Shown piece after piece: positions 9,523 to 35,621 of a DNA stretch of 64,000 nt. How positions within the stretch are numbered: the first letter of the stretch is position 1; the number at the start of each line of letters is the position of its first letter. The DNA lies in the NCBI RefSeq assembly GCF_003254745.1, contig NZ_QKXH01000008.1, positions 1 through 64,000 on the forward strand, given 5' to 3'. Made by a program: the position numbers and the translations under genes. The notes beneath the pieces are model-generated. The model saw nothing but the letters and a program-made list of their open reading frames with translations. It ran no database searches and had not been told where the DNA came from. Origin of the DNA: Flavobacterium aquariorum. GTDB lineage: Bacteria > Bacteroidota > Bacteroidia > Flavobacteriales > Flavobacteriaceae.

Positions 9523-10932
9523 TCATGAAGTAATAAACCTAGGATTTATTAAGTTTTCTATTGAATAGATTTCATCCCATTTATCTTGAGTAATTAGTTT
9601 GCGCTCAACAACTGCAATTTGATGAACACTTTTTCCAGTTTTCAAAGCTTCTCCTGCAATGCTGGCACTTTCTTCGTATCCTAAAATTGGGTTCAACTGA
9701 GTTACAATTCCTATGCTATTCATCACCATATTATAACAATGCTGCTCATTTGCAGTAATACCAATGATACATTTATCAATTAATGTTTGAATAGCATTTG
9801 ACAAATAATCCAATGAGGTAAACATTGCAAAAGCAATTACTGGCTCCATAACATTTAATTGCAATTGCCCAGCTTCAGCCGCCATCGTTACAGTTAAATC
9901 TTGTCCTATAACATAAAAACAGGTTTGATTCACCACTTCAGGAATTACAGGATTTACTTTTCCCGGCATAATCGATGAACCAGGCTGACGAGGAGGCAGG
10001 TTAATTTCATTAAATCCTGTTCTTGGCCCTGAGCTCAACAGACGTAAATCATTACATATTTTTGAAATTTTAACCGCTGTTCTTTTCATTGTCCCCATTA
10101 TTTGAACATAAGCCCCAGTATCCACAGTTGCTTCGATCAAATCTGGCGACAATGTCAATGGAATTCCAACCTCTTTAGCCAAATAATTGACACAAATTTC
10201 CGGATAACCTTCCGGTGCATTTACTTTGGTTCCAATAGCTGTTGCCCCCATATTAATGTCTAACACTAAACTTTGGGCTTCTTTTAACCTTAAAACATCT
10301 TCACCTATTGTAGTTGCATAGGAATGGAATTCCTGTCCCAAAGTCATCGGCACCGCATCCTGTAACTGAGTTCTTCCCATTTTTAAAACTTCCTTGAACT
10401 CGCTACCTTTTGCAGCAAAAGCTTTTTCAAGATTTTCAACTGTTTTTATAAAATGATCCATCTTTAAATAAAGTGCTATTCTAAATGCTGATGGATATGC
10501 ATCATTAGTCGATTGAGAACAATTCACATGATTATTGGGATGCAAGAAGTTATATTCCCCTTTTTTATGCCCCAAATATTCTAAACCAATATTGGCAATA
10601 ACCTCATTGGCATTCATGTTTACAGAAGTTCCAGCGCCTCCCTGTATCAAATCGCTGACAAATTCTTGATCAAATTTTCCCGCGATTACTTGATCGCTTC
10701 CATAACAAATAGCTTCAGCAATTTTAGCATCTAAAGCACCACAATCTTTGTTGGCCATTGCAGCAGCTTTCTTTACATAACCCAATGCCTTTATGAACAA
10801 TGGCTCTCTGGAAATTGGAATTCCAGTGATATTAAAATTCTCTACTGCTCTGAAAGTTTGTATTCCATAATACAAGTGATCCGGAATTTCCAATTCTCCT
10901 AAAAAATCGTGTTCTTTTCTTGTTGTTTTCAT
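9523..10932 (-). CDS. aspA: Aspartate ammonia-lyase (cytoplasmic paralogue)
   Basis: A 469-aa aspartase with the complete signature GSSIMPGKVNPVIPE, GGAGTSVNMNANEV and SQSTNDAYPS. No signal peptide: it starts MKTTRKEHDFLGELEIPDHL. It deaminates aspartate to fumarate. It is the first gene of a leftward group with the exported aspartase (27-bp gap) and the asparaginase. Two adjacent, clearly diverged aspartases imply two compartments or two regulatory states. Confidence 0.93.
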   Translation of the reverse strand: MKTTRKEHDFLGELEIPDHLYYGIQTFRAVENFNITGIPISREPLFIKALGYVKKAAAMANKDCGALDAKIAEAICYGSDQVIAGKFDQEFVSDLIQGGAGTSVNMNANEVIANIGLEYLGHKKGEYNFLHPNNHVNCSQSTNDAYPSAFRIALYLKMDHFIKTVENLEKAFAAKGSEFKEVLKMGRTQLQDAVPMTLGQEFHSYATTIGEDVLRLKEAQSLVLDINMGATAIGTKVNAPEGYPEICVNYLAKEVGIPLTLSPDLIEATVDTGAYVQIMGTMKRTAVKISKICNDLRLLSSGPRTGFNEINLPPRQPGSSIMPGKVNPVIPEVVNQTCFYVIGQDLTVTMAAEAGQLQLNVMEPVIAFAMFTSLDYLSNAIQTLIDKCIIGITANEQHCYNMVMNSIGIVTQLNPILGYEESASIAGEALKTGKSVHQIAVVERKLITQDKWDEIYSIENLINPRFITS

Positions 10933-31806: not shown

Positions 31807-31945
31807 AAACACATAGAAACATAGATTTTGTAAGCTCAAAAAAGAGGTGTTTCACTTATTTGAAACACACATAGTGCGCTATGTGGAAGAAATATATTTC
31901 TTTTTGGCATTCTTTTTTTAACAAAGTCTATGTTTCTGTGTGTTT
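31807..31945. repeat. MITE-like element with 25-bp terminal inverted repeats
   Basis: The ends AAACACATAGAAACATAGAT (31807 on) and ATGTTTCTGTGTGTTT (to 31945) are inverted copies over 25 bp with two mismatches. Inside are two more hairpins: GTGTTTCA/TGAAACAC (31847-31868) and CACATAG-TGCG-CTATGTG (31868-31885). There is no coding capacity. Elements with the ACACATAGAAACATAGATT core are, as I recall, common between flavobacterial genes. Confidence 0.65.
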
Positions 31946-32056
31946 AATAAAAATTTCATGAATTACACCCAACAAGTTGGTTTTCATTTGTATTTAAAAA
32001 ATTATTTCCAAAAACCGTACCTTTCAAATTCTTTTAAACCAAAAAACCATACTATC

Positions 32057-32497
32057 ATGAAATTAAAATTAGCCCTGTTCTTTGTTCCAAGCTTACTTTT
32101 GTTAAGTTGCAATTCTAAAGTAAATGAATCGCAAGCCATTAAAAACCTCCTCGAAAAAGAATCATCCAGTTGGAGATCGGGCGATAGTAAAGCACATGCT
32201 GCCTGCTGGCACATACAGCCTTATAGCAAAATTTTAATTTCAACTGCTGATGGTAAAACTTTTGAAGTACCTCCGACAGCTATGATAAAACCAATTGTGA
32301 ATGCCAGTGGCGGTAGTTCTATGAACTCCAATTACAAAATGAGCATTCACGATGATAATGCCTGGGTTAGTCATGATGAAGTATCGATTTCCAAAGACGG
32401 CAAAAAAACCTTTTCGCATGAGATTCGGTTATTAGAAAAAGTAAATGGCGATTGGAAACTTGTAGGACAATCTATTCACGCCTATAAAACCGAGTAA
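32057..32497 (+). CDS. Small lipoprotein with SnoaL/DUF4440-like domain
   Basis: A 146-aa lipoprotein: MKLKLALFFVPSLLLLSC gives a signal peptide with lipobox LLSC (Cys18). An in-frame start upstream (31940) would add 39 residues lying inside the repeat element and is rejected. The body begins NESQAIKNLLEKESSSWRSG and ends WKLVGQSIHAYK, as in NTF2-like (SnoaL/DUF4440) proteins. Function unknown. A weak hairpin follows (AATACCTTA / TAAGGTATT, 32522-32561). Confidence 0.7.
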   Translation: MKLKLALFFVPSLLLLSCNSKVNESQAIKNLLEKESSSWRSGDSKAHAACWHIQPYSKILISTADGKTFEVPPTAMIKPIVNASGGSSMNSNYKMSIHDDNAWVSHDEVSISKDGKKTFSHEIRLLEKVNGDWKLVGQSIHAYKTE

Positions 32498-32854
32498 AAA
32501 ATTTGCAAACAAAAGACATTCAATACCTTAGTATATAAAAATCTATGTAACATAAGGTATTATCCAGCCATAATCTCTGATTATCTTTATAAATTAGGCA
32601 TTAACACCAATAATATTGGTACTTAGAACCAACAATGCTGGTAATAAAAACCAACAATACAGGTAATAAAAACCAACAATACTGGCTATTACAACCAATA
32701 ATAGAGGTAATTAAAACCAATAATACTGGTAATAAAAACCAACAATACTGGCTCTTACAACCAATAATAGAGGTATTTATCACCAATATTATTAGTCATT
32801 AACACCATTTTATTGATAAAAATAATTATTTTTATAGAATAAAACATACAAAAA
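32498..32854. other. Non-coding region dominated by the 22-bp repeat array
   Basis: After a weak hairpin (32522-32561), the array at 32606-32818 fills most of the space up to the HTH gene start at 32855. A leftward reading frame across the array merely translates the repeat and is not a gene. Confidence 0.6.
32606..32818. repeat. Ten dyad repeats at exact 22-bp spacing (iteron or operator array)
   Basis: Units of the form ACCAAyAATAnTGGT begin at 32606, 32628, 32650, 32672, 32694, 32716, 32738, 32760, 32782 and 32804: ten in a row, every step exactly 22 bp. The first unit is a near-perfect palindrome (ACCAATAATATTGGT) and the last has decayed. Units alternate between a few variants. Spacers are A/T-rich (about 7 bp). 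The array ends 36 bp before an HTH gene. Even spacing of about two helical turns suggests a protein binding along one face. Confidence 0.85.
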
Positions 32855-33217
32855 ATGATAAACAGCAGTAAGAAATACAAGAAAGATCTAGGCGAACGGT
32901 ACCCTTTGATTGGTAATTTTATTCATTACCACATCATTCACAACAAAATTAAAAAAGCCGAGGTCGCTCGGGAGTTGGGCATCATCCCTACGGGATTGAA
33001 TGATTATTTTAAGAGAGATTCCCTGCAATTTGCAATTTTATGGAAACTTAGCATGGTATTGAAACACAATTTTATTGCCCAATTGGGAGAGTATTTGCCC
33101 TACCGTTTTGAGACCATTAGAGAAAAGGCGCTACTGGAACAACTGGCCGAGAAAGAAGCCATCATACAAAAAATGGAAATCCAATTGGAGACAATGAAGG
33201 AAATGATCCGGAAGTAA
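32855..33217 (+). CDS. Small helix-turn-helix protein with coiled-coil tail
   Basis: A 120-aa protein. Residues about 30-75 (KIKKAEVARELGIIPTGLND, then YFKRDSLQFAILWKLS) look like a Cro/C1-type helix-turn-helix; residues about 88-120 are a charged helix rich in E, K, Q and L, probably a dimerising coiled coil. No close family is recognised. The ten-unit dyad array directly upstream is an obvious candidate target, which would make it self-regulated. Downstream lies the first cassette-like gene. Confidence 0.65.
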   Translation: MINSSKKYKKDLGERYPLIGNFIHYHIIHNKIKKAEVARELGIIPTGLNDYFKRDSLQFAILWKLSMVLKHNFIAQLGEYLPYRFETIREKALLEQLAEKEAIIQKMEIQLETMKEMIRK

Positions 33218-33392
33218 TAAACAGTATTGGAATTGACTTGATATCAATTCTATTTGAAAAATAAACGGTATGTTTGTCAGACAAAGCTACCCAAATTTGG
33301 GTGAGTATTTATGACGAAGTCACACATATAGACTAGTTAGCGGTAATACGTCAAGATTGCGTGCACAAATAATCGTACAGAAAACAAAAAAA

Positions 33393-34691
33393 ATGAAAAG
33401 ACTTTCGACAATCTTATTGCTTATACTATTATCAATTAGTGCTTTTGGTCAAACAAGGAAAGACAACTTACCTTATAAACTGGACGAGTATTTTACAGCA
33501 TTGACAGTATTTAAAAACTTTAACGGTAACGTAATGGTATCAAAAGACGGGCAACTGCTTCTGGACAAAACTTATAACATCGAAGGTGAGACAGATAGTT
33601 TAAAGATTACTAAAGACAGCAAGTTTATCATTGCTTCTGTTTCAAAAATTTTTATCAAATTCAGTATTTTGAGGCTTGTTGAGTTAAAAAAAATCCAACT
33701 CACAGATAACTTAACTAATCTAATACCAGACTTCCCAAACGGGGAAAAAATAACTATCGACGATTTGATCCATCATCAATCGGGTTTACCTAGAGAACTT
33801 TCAACAAAAGATTCGTATGACAGCTTATCGCTTTCAAAAATTGTTGAATTAGCAAAATTGGAAAAGCTCCAATTTGAACCAGGTTCACAAACGCTGTATT
33901 CCAATGTTGGCTATTTCCTTTTGCATTATATTATTGACAAGAGTTCAAGTAACGGATATTTAGCTTTTATACAAAATGAAATTTTCAACAAAATGAAGTT
34001 GAACAATACATTAGAGTTCAATTCCACTAAGTCAGTCCCAAAATTTGCTATAGGATTTGACAATGAAAACGGGAAATTAATCCCAACCTCTATAAATAAA
34101 ATAAAAAAAGCTGAAACTGGGAATTATCTTTCCACCATTGGAGATTTGTATAGTTTCAGCCAGCAGATATTATTAGGCAAAGCATTAAAAAAATCCCTAG
34201 CAATTGAAATGTTCGGACATGATAGTATTCTAAATCAGTCCGGCGGAAGGTCGGGTTACAGATCCTATTTTTATAAGGATTTAAAAACAGATGTGACATT
34301 TATCTTTCTTTCAAATTACACAGACATTCCGTTTCAAGAAGTGACTACAGATGTTATAAATCTTCTTGATAACAAAAGTTATGAAGTTCCTCATAAAATA
34401 AATCGAGTAGAGATTCAACTTTCAACAGAGATACTAAAAAAATATACGGGTAAATTTGCGTTGGAAGCTGACTTAACACAGACTTTTTCTATTGAATTAA
34501 TAAGCAACACATTATTTCAAGTTGATGTTAATGGAGACAAATACCAATTGCACCCTGATAGCGAAAATACTTTTTTTGAAAGTCCAATTACAAAGGATGG
34601 TTTTATTTTTACGCTTAACAAACAAACAAACCAATATGACTTAACAATAGTTTCTGGAGGTATAAATCTTAAAATGAAACGACAAGGATAG
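33393..34691 (+). CDS. Serine hydrolase (class C beta-lactamase/PBP fold)
   Basis: A 432-aa protein with a signal peptide (MKRLSTILLLILLSISAFGQ). The active-site SxxK motif is SVSK in FIIASVSKIFIKFS (about residues 79-82), and the YxN motif is YSN in LYSNVGYFLLHYI. It belongs to the penicillin-binding/esterase/class C superfamily; antibiotic hydrolysis cannot be claimed. A TTG start at 33357 in frame is less likely because it would disturb the leader. It sits alone inside a cassette-like unit. Confidence 0.85.
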   Translation: MKRLSTILLLILLSISAFGQTRKDNLPYKLDEYFTALTVFKNFNGNVMVSKDGQLLLDKTYNIEGETDSLKITKDSKFIIASVSKIFIKFSILRLVELKKIQLTDNLTNLIPDFPNGEKITIDDLIHHQSGLPRELSTKDSYDSLSLSKIVELAKLEKLQFEPGSQTLYSNVGYFLLHYIIDKSSSNGYLAFIQNEIFNKMKLNNTLEFNSTKSVPKFAIGFDNENGKLIPTSINKIKKAETGNYLSTIGDLYSFSQQILLGKALKKSLAIEMFGHDSILNQSGGRSGYRSYFYKDLKTDVTFIFLSNYTDIPFQEVTTDVINLLDNKSYEVPHKINRVEIQLSTEILKKYTGKFALEADLTQTFSIELISNTLFQVDVNGDKYQLHPDSENTFFESPITKDGFIFTLNKQTNQYDLTIVSGGINLKMKRQG

Positions 34692-34709
34692 AAAGCACTA
34701 CCGCTAACA

Positions 34710-34823
34710 GCGGCTAAGGGAGATTGCTGGTTTTCGGTAACATGAAATTTTATTTTCACGAAGAATGTTTTATCGTGGCAGAGAAAACTCAGTCCGCTTG
34801 AATCGCAGCCTCGCTTAAGCCGC
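34710..34823 (+). repeat. attC-like imperfect hairpin
   Basis: Inverted pieces GCGGCTAAGGGAGATTGC (34710-34727) and GCAGCCTCGCTTAAGCCGC (34805-34823) pair with bulges, framed by CTAAC on the left and CGTTGG on the right. It is clearly richer in GC than its neighbours. This is the layout of an integron recombination site but is not a strict consensus match. Confidence 0.45.
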
Positions 34824-34951
34824 GAAACGTTGGCAGCAACCGTGTGAAACGACTATACAACCGTTGCAAGAGTAACAATTAGACACCGGATGACTGCCCT
34901 CACTGCAATTAAAATATGACAGAGGAACAAATTTTTTAATAAAATAAATAT

Positions 34952-35308
34952 ATGCTGACAAACGTAAATCCAAAAATGCCAATGCGGAACAAGACCGCAA
35001 CAAAAGATTTCTACATAAACAAGTTAGGATTTCGGAACGTTGGAAGTTCTGACTATGACGGTTATTTGATGGTTGAAAAAGACAACATAGAAATCCACTT
35101 TTTTGAGTTTAAAGAACTTGGCTCGAAAGAAAACTATTCAGGAGTTTACATCCGAACCAATAACATTGACAGTTTATATCAATCATTGTTGGACAATAAA
35201 ATAAGCATACACCCGAATGGTACATTAGAGACAAAAGCATGGGGACAAAGGGAATTTTCCTTACTGGACCCGGATAACAATCTACTGACTTTCGGACAGA
35301 GTATATAA
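34952..35308 (+). CDS. VOC-family (glyoxalase/bleomycin-resistance fold) protein
   Basis: A 118-aa one-domain VOC protein: the first beta-alpha unit has ATKDFYINKLGFRNVGSSDY, metal-ligand-type residues occur in IEIHFFEFKELG, and the last strand reads REFSLLDPDNNLLTFGQ (Glu/Asp-rich, as in bleomycin-binding relatives). Substrate unknown. It is the gene of a second cassette-like unit following CGTTGGCAGC; such single-gene VOC cassettes are common in integron arrays. Confidence 0.85.
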   Translation: MLTNVNPKMPMRNKTATKDFYINKLGFRNVGSSDYDGYLMVEKDNIEIHFFEFKELGSKENYSGVYIRTNNIDSLYQSLLDNKISIHPNGTLETKAWGQREFSLLDPDNNLLTFGQSI

Positions 35309-35621
35309 TCACTATTGACCGAGCACTACGCAACGCAGCAGCCAACAGCTGCAACGGGTTTGGGCAATTGGCTTAATGGGAAGCTGGTTTGGTGTTTGGA
35401 AGAAAGGCGGTCGACTTTATCCGTGAATACCTTTAGGACTTCAGTACACTTGTTGTATAAATTCGGGATTATCTTCATTTACCATTGATTAAAACCTTGA
35501 CAAGTAGTACACACTCAAAACAGTAGCAACAAAAAAATCTATGTAACAAAAGTTACTGAACATACTTAATTTCTGTTGTAATTTTGCGTTATAAAAACAA
35601 TACACTTTAAAGCAAACACTT
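35309..35621. other. Cassette remnant and rhodanese promoter region
   Basis: Begins with a GC-rich stretch (CGCAACGCAGCAGCCAACAG, 35329 on) that resembles the left arm of a second attC-like site but lacks a matching right arm. Then come a GTAAC-N4-GTTAC dyad (35543-35556) and a -7 TAATTTTG (35579-35586) for the rhodanese pair. Confidence 0.45.
35542..35586 (+). promoter_or_regulatory. Rhodanese promoter with GTAAC-N4-GTTAC operator
   Basis: The dyad GTAACAAAAGTTAC (35543-35556) ends 22 bp before the -7 element TAATTTTG (35579-35586), in the -33 region, where no good TTG is present. That arrangement suits an activator, perhaps of the Crp/Fnr family, standing in for a weak -33. Gene start at 35622. 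Confidence 0.55.

Follow-up and report, generated by a model that had tools for sequence, protein, structure and literature searches.

A small helix-turn-helix (HTH) gene of Flavobacterium aquariorum is preceded by an array of ten units that follow one another at exactly 22 bp, and comparison over about 90 paired loci points to the helical phase of the DNA, and not its sequence, as the conserved feature of this presumably regulatory array. By comparative computation we found a pitch that is kept while the sequence of the units changes, an association of the arrays with gene families, among close relatives, HTH residues that covary with the sequence of the array and, behind the HTH gene, an attI-like site followed by a block of cassettes. 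With moderate confidence, we read the array as an operator to which the HTH protein would bind cooperatively on one face of the DNA, at the protein's own promoter and ahead of a variable gene block.

The array and its position

The window, by which we mean the whole stretch of DNA analysed, comprises 64,000 nt of Flavobacterium aquariorum (assembly GCF_003254745.1, contig NZ_QKXH01000008.1, positions 1 to 64,000 of the forward strand), and the locus sits in a contig of 276 kb. The array occupies positions 32606-32818 of the forward strand. The trinucleotide ACC recurs at 32606, 32628 and so on up to 32804, giving ten starts exactly 22 bp apart, whereas the longest ACC run at any other pitch from 15 to 30 is 1. 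None of 2000 dinucleotide shuffles of the 296-bp region produced a run of ten starts, the best shuffle reaching three (maximum over pitches 15-30). The array is also detected by TRF (period 22, 9.5 copies) and by autocorrelation at lag 22 (z=9.8), and its reality is confirmed.

The initial annotation had described ten dyads at an exact 22-bp pitch. The ten starts and the pitch stand, but the dyads number nine: units 1 to 9 are recognisable as such (ACC-N9-GGT, GGC or AGT) and unit 10 (ACCATTTTATTGATA) has kept the left half alone. The literal consensus ACCAAyAATAnTGGT is matched in full by a minority of the units, and the array as a whole is dyad-symmetric in a folded-unit test (p=0.003).

Between the end of the last unit at 32818 and the ATG of the HTH gene at 32855 lie 36 bp (32819-32854, forward strand) that form the leader and probable promoter region of this gene. 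The motif TAnnTTTG, the -7 promoter element of Flavobacterium, was not seen as a perfect match in the window leader; among the 93 homologous loci, 28 have it no further than 80 bp from the HTH start, and among 93 control windows 8 do. The other side of the array holds a small lipoprotein-like ORF (31940-32497) with no family match above the cut-off, at the position taken in other loci by a gene for a protein of about 165 aa.

The 120-aa HTH protein

The gene downstream of the array (32855-33217, forward strand) encodes a 120-aa protein of the XRE/Cro HTH type with a predicted C-terminal coiled coil. Its AlphaFold model, computed for the protein without DNA and of moderate confidence (pLDDT 75.8, pTM 0.43), displays an HTH bundle with helices at residues 19-29, 34-41, 45-53, 55-68 and 73-78, the third of which is the predicted recognition helix, and a long C-terminal helix spanning residues 88-119. 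The description of a Cro-like HTH/coiled-coil gene starting 36 bp behind the array thus agrees with both the coordinates and the predicted structure. Folds of the XRE/Cro type align with the model, mostly over residues 12-84, with a best VIA-align Z of 8.1 over 78 residues, while the best Foldseek E-value was 0.29. VIA-align rows outside the XRE regulators (e.g. HppE) have the common HTH bundle alone in common with the model, and sequence searches of Pfam and PDB returned weak HTH matches only. We consider the protein a predicted XRE/Cro-type HTH regulator, an assignment made at the level of the fold.

Members of this family occur six to seven times in the window's genome (seven at E<=1e-8), and at least one match at E<=1e-8 was obtained in 44 of 398 Flavobacterium genomes. 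The named matches belong to Flavobacterium, Kaistella, Chryseobacterium and MAGs of Flavobacteriales or Bacteroidetes. A search of viral contigs, covering one scan of eight possible, gave no lead. Two of the HTH paralogues are accompanied by tandem repeats of another kind, with 7-bp units GCAGAAG and AGATTGC (L024, near 10355-10420; L023, upstream of the HTH gene).

Conservation of the pitch and turnover of the sequence

The 93 homologous loci (18 found first, 60 fetched later and 15 named) take in 77 of the 100 listed family places, the other 23 being left out. Two loci, L070 and L124, have identical upstreams, leaving 92 distinct upstreams, and the 93 loci encode 89 distinct proteins. In 75 loci, the strongest autocorrelation lag upstream of the HTH gene reaches z>=5, and in 74 of these it falls at 21, 22, 42, 43 or 44 bp; at z>=4, the corresponding figures are 81 and 80. 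By comparison, of 420 upstream regions taken before other genes in these loci, 3 reached z>=5, never at these lags, and 22 reached z>=4, two of them at these lags. The 19 HTH loci in which no helical-lag array was found at z>=5 include two with truncated genes (L065 and L066).

The unit sequences differ strongly between HTH subfamilies. Dyad symmetry of the folded units is significant (p<=0.05) in 28 of 60 arrays and not in the other 32; it is therefore frequent without being universal, and the binding of one dimer per dyad is not a general rule. The nearest orthologous locus, in genome G030, displays the turnover at short range: its array is 83.2% identical to that of the window over 214 columns, without a single gap column; the corresponding identities are 94.8% for the HTH gene and 92.5% for the 5' flank. 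Selection acting on phase and not on the exact sequence would give substitutions without gaps, as in this array.

The proposal of the initial annotation that spacing rather than sequence is selected is well supported by these comparisons, relatives having held the pitch over differing units and, in G030, over many substitutions free of any indel. The pairing of array and gene likewise recurs outside the window, upstream of the HTH gene in the 74 loci with helical lags. An ordinary minisatellite is an unlikely origin, considering that the pitch is conserved through sequence turnover and that the 420 control upstreams are devoid of such lags at z>=5. The pattern was not found described in the literature covered on Flavobacterium repeats with HTH genes and on operator and partition arrays; most subscription journals fell outside this scope, so that the absence weighs little.

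Covariation of HTH residues with the array

Covariation of protein and array was examined in 58 of the 93 loci, those with arrays below z=5 or with proteins more than 90% identical being left out. Over all pairs of the 58 proteins, protein and array distances correlate at 0.395, without any prominence of the recognition helix. As the distance measure is probably saturated for unrelated arrays, the analysis was narrowed to the 196 pairs with at least 45% protein identity, a choice made after the all-pairs result was known. Among these close pairs, the highest partial correlations after removal of overall divergence are those of T46 (0.53), N49 (0.38), L12 (0.34) and D50 (0.32). The HTH columns 28-53 rank above columns 56-120 (p=1.6e-4), column 46 stayed within the top 3 in all 200 subsamples, and in 200 trials with shuffled array labels the best column reached at most 0.30, against 0.53 in the real data. 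The mean over the recognition helix columns 44-53 taken alone gave p=0.07 at the 45% threshold and was weaker at higher ones.

The HTH protein thus probably reads the array, perhaps through its predicted recognition helix; the covariation is good but indirect evidence of reading, drawn from close relatives. T46, N49 and D50 are the predicted specificity residues. As array sequence and reader appear to change together, these loci provide a natural series on the coevolution of an HTH and its operator.

A proposed same-face operator and known regulators

The operator model, whose inferred parts are the binding of dimers, their cooperativity, autoregulation and a possible influence on the expression of cassettes, would work as follows. 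One HTH dimer would dock on each dyad of about 15 bp by way of the recognition helix, and with a spacing of 21-22 bp, or two helical turns, all dimers would lie on the same side of the DNA. They could then be joined through their C-terminal coiled coils into one cooperative nucleoprotein stretch of about 200 bp ending at the promoter of the gene, with the outcome that HTH expression would be steeply self-limiting. The array would moreover fix the transcriptional state at the start of an exchangeable block of genes, which in the window would extend from the attI-like site onward.

Such a system would resemble the Cro/CI-type (XRE) repressors, such as the repressors of phages 434 and P22 and the C proteins of restriction-modification systems, in the predicted XRE-type HTH fold and in the presence of dyad sites upstream of the protein's own gene. 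Known Cro/CI-type systems have two to a few operators. The present array differs from them by its ten sites at a fixed two-turn pitch, by the predicted coiled-coil C-terminus of the protein, by a pitch conserved while the sequence turns over and by the existence of several paralogues per genome.

A cooperative autoregulatory operator was among the functions suggested by the initial annotation, which was made without knowledge of the paralogues, the 165-aa family or the attI/cassette block, and it is still the best account in that the array abuts the gene and residues of the predicted helix covary with it. It is nonetheless incomplete, considering that arrays also occur as orphans and at 165-aa genes devoid of an HTH ORF. 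This is the step of the model most at risk: where the HTH gene is missing, an array must have a different reader or serve a different purpose.

The 165-aa family and its arrays

In 46 of the 93 HTH loci, a match to the gene of about 165 aa, cut by a contig end in some cases, is found on the same strand ahead of the array, which separates it from the HTH gene. The window's own locus has no such gene, and neither do about half of the HTH loci. The 165-aa protein gave no Pfam or NCBIfam family above the cut-off, and its AF2 model is unusable. The family is present in 48 of 398 Flavobacterium genomes, 34 of which are common with the 44 HTH-bearing genomes against about 5 expected (p=4e-29), and in 21 of 296 sampled Bacteroidota genomes, three of these being Flavobacterium.

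The arrays follow the 165-aa genes closely. Among 80 distinct genes, the 3' flank reached z>=5 in 72, and 68 of these did so at a helical lag. Such arrays were found in none of 37 upstream flanks of the same genes and in 2 of 250 control 3' flanks, the latter reaching z>=5 at any lag in 27 cases; these control genes were drawn from HTH loci only. Half of the 165-aa genes (40 of 80) have no HTH ORF within 1600 bp, as judged by an HTH ORF search, and 34 of these 40 still carry an array, namely 18 of 19 Flavobacterium genes and 16 of 21 from elsewhere. The idea that the array is tied only to the HTH gene was rejected on this count. A protein family without Pfam match is thereby linked to helical-pitch arrays across a phylum.

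These observations give some weight to another explanation, which we nevertheless hold to be rather unlikely: the array would belong to a different and perhaps older element, made of the 165-aa family and its 3' array, with the HTH protein as a later reader acquired in some Flavobacteriales. The array would then act as a scaffold, anchoring or bridging DNA or marking a site of gene exchange, without need of the HTH protein. The 3' location of the arrays, their persistence beside genes devoid of HTH partners, the spread of the family in Bacteroidota and its co-occurrence with the HTH genes all speak for it. It is weakened by the absence of the 165-aa gene from the window locus and from about half of the HTH loci, and by residues that show no covariation with the array above shuffles. 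The sole exception, and a marginal one, is the C-terminal tail at the 60% threshold alone (0.27 against a 95% level of 0.26). The 165-aa protein was accordingly rejected as a sequence-specific reader, and the unusable AF2 model lends this explanation no structural help.

The two accounts can be joined in a wider scheme that we put forward tentatively, as a possibility somewhat short of probable. A so far undescribed Bacteroidota element would consist of the 165-aa protein, an array in which nothing but the two-turn pitch is conserved and, in Flavobacteriales, a coevolving HTH reader. The array would nucleate a one-faced filament controlling (silencing, insulating or marking) an adjacent exchangeable block of accessory and defence genes, in Flavobacterium possibly an attI/cassette platform served in trans by a Xer-like integrase.

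Orphan arrays

Arrays of the window-type unit also exist elsewhere in the window's genome, behind a thrE-like gene, in the interval separating bglX from a glucoamylase-like gene, and within an ABC operon of nitrate type. Orphan arrays of this type were recorded as L181, L182 and L183 (C39:62.2 kb, C45:196.8 kb and C39:373 kb), all intergenic and next to unrelated genes. Pairs of window-type dyads were found in 10 of 398 genomes, against one match in total for a reversed-pattern control; 7 of the 10 contain the HTH family and 3 have no match to it at E<=1e-8. At two places, the nitrate-type ABC operon and the glucoamylase/bglX interval, the orphan arrays are orthologous in G000 and G030. In G005, G051 and G031 (L185, L188 and L197), an array with an HTH-type leader lies behind a phytase-like gene and no HTH reading frame is found there.

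Dispersed palindromic units accompanied by a RAYT-type transposase are the mark of REP/BIME sequences. The intergenic position of the orphan arrays behind unrelated genes, in which dispersal is directly seen, together with the dyad symmetry of 28 of 60 arrays, would fit REP/BIME-like repeats, selfish or arising as a by-product, that settled by chance near the genes studied here. We regard this as very improbable in view of a pitch kept at two or four helical turns over unrelated sequences and GC contents, of the covariation between array sequence and HTH residues in close pairs, and of the strong association of the arrays with two gene families, which other genes of the same loci do not share.

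That a genome can carry the same unit type at several places, two of which are orthologous in G000 and G030, would also suit a centromere- or anchor-like site. The HTH protein would load on arrays at several chromosomal places and bridge or position DNA, in the manner of ParR/parC (R1, pSK41) or omega/parS (pSM19035). The proteins omega and ParR are centromere-binding proteins of the ribbon-helix-helix type. Both systems have in common with the present one a tandem array of sites at a promoter and a small DNA-binding protein, and according to PMC5016525 their arrays sit at the promoters of the respective genes or overlap them, the affinity of omega depends on the number of sites and ParR represses the par promoter. 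They work with a ParA or ParM partner on plasmids, whereas here the model is an all-helical HTH of XRE type and none of those features was found. Searches of 72,556 plasmid records and 50,697 phage records matched neither the HTH nor the 165-aa protein, and no partition NTPase appears among 25 of 50 Pfam families listed, with 77 first downstream genes considered. A centromere-like function accordingly seems improbable to us.

The initial annotation had mentioned a partition-like site and iterons as further options, and both may serve as works-like analogies. The first is favoured by the several places and the promoter position and weakened by the predicted XRE fold and the lack of a partition NTPase among those families. 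An iteron origin has a Rep initiator beside its iterons on an autonomous replicon; the Pfam search with the 120-aa protein gave no Rep match.

The attI-like site and the cassette block

Behind the HTH gene, the window locus continues with an attI-like site located about 120 bp after the stop codon and then with cassettes. The site (33268-33338, forward strand) consists of an imperfect hairpin followed by TATAGACTAGTTAGCGG, with a crossover-type core GTTAGCGG at 33336. Cassette 1 (33337-34828, forward strand) carries a gene for a PF00144 serine hydrolase of beta-lactamase-like fold, and its R'' TACCGCTAAC at 34699-34708 is the exact inverse complement of the core at 33336. Cassette 2, bounded by GTTGGCAGC at 34829, extends on the same strand to the attC core at 35351-35379 and contains a glyoxalase-family gene (34952-35308); its R'' GCAGCCAAC at 35338 has one mismatch. 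The R''/R' complementarity that closes cassettes is thus present in the window. The orthologous locus of G030 holds other genes in the cassette stretch.

The same organisation is found at part of the homologous loci. A search for the R'' 10-mer over the first 14 HTH loci gave nine exact matches, one with one mismatch and four loci with none. Over all 93 loci, 21 raw matches were obtained, three of which had no AGTT[A/G] core and were left out, so that an R'' partner with an AGTT core is present in 18 of 93; a looser test matches 26 of 579 control windows. Of the 93 loci, 27 show an attI-like motif no more than 200 bp from the HTH stop; among control windows the count is 13 of 270. TAnnTTTG or TAnnTTAG was counted, without control windows, within 110 bp of the HTH stop in 39 of 93 loci, and a promoter for downstream cassettes behind the HTH gene is at this stage a lead only. 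That integron-type cassettes in Flavobacterium should be headed by an HTH gene gives these loci an interest of their own.

The succession of an attI-like site, cassettes with R''/R' complementarity and attC-like sites is common to the window and to integrons (In0, CALIN). PMC8618304 and PMC2426708 already place Bacteroidota (Bacteroidetes/Chlorobi) among the phyla with integrons, and the IntegronFinder 2.0 article gives, for Bacteroidetes, In0 alone from earlier work and one complete integron, in Salinibacter (PMC9024848). No title about Flavobacterium was found in the integron literature covered on Flavobacterium and Bacteroidota, most subscription journals being outside this scope. Unlike integrons, the window's genome has no integron integrase above the family cut-off, the best match being split around model positions 179-238, which correspond to the IntI insert. 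The recombinase of the genus is a 347-aa Xer-like integrase without this insert, found in 200 of 396 Flavobacterium genomes. It stands beside the attI-like site elsewhere in the genus and not at the window locus, where the HTH gene takes the position held elsewhere by the integrase gene. The window's genome contains a copy, L198, on the minus strand of contig C32 (C32:233-1273), and an attI-like hairpin follows it immediately on the 3' side.

At the 30 best-matching integrase genes of the 200 positive genomes, which are not a random draw, an attI-like motif is present in every 3' flank, starting 89-93 nt after the stop in 29 cases and at 47 nt in one, and an exact R'' partner was found at 13 of the 30. 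The loose motif also matches 35 of 240 other windows of integrase loci, so it is the fixed position after the integrase stop that carries weight. The 347-aa Xer-like integrase and its attI-like hairpin apparently form a widespread cassette system of Flavobacterium.

A further possibility is that the array itself takes part in cassette recombination as an accessory region of attI, where binding would shape the DNA for cassette insertion. The enrichment of the motif behind HTH stops would accord with such a role, as would the order of array, HTH gene, integrase and attI-like site in two genomes (L135 and L154), where the integrase gene comes immediately after the HTH gene, and the one best-matching integrase locus with a helical-pitch array (z>=5) directly upstream. 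The other 29 of these 30 loci have no array directly upstream. A full R'/R'' pair of cassette type was found in one of 20 Flavobacterium 165-aa loci without HTH gene, with an attI-like stretch recognised by eye in L200 and L212, and at the window locus about 0.5 kb, including a gene, separate the array from attI. We consequently think a role as attI accessory region most unlikely and retain the operator reading.

The genes carried behind the HTH gene are varied. Defence genes were considered as a general cargo and rejected, the first downstream genes being mixed and including housekeeping functions. With 20 control proteins scanned by PADLOC, we claim no enrichment of defence genes. Behind HTH paralogue G000c of the window's genome, a Pycsar-like set (L021:10457-12732) comprises two PycC-type cyclases, one of them weak, and a PycTM-type effector; no R'' partner was found at this paralogue. 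Clusters of attC-like cores were also noticed near the starts of contigs C34, C40 and C47 of the window's genome, which suggests longer cassette arrays broken in assembly.
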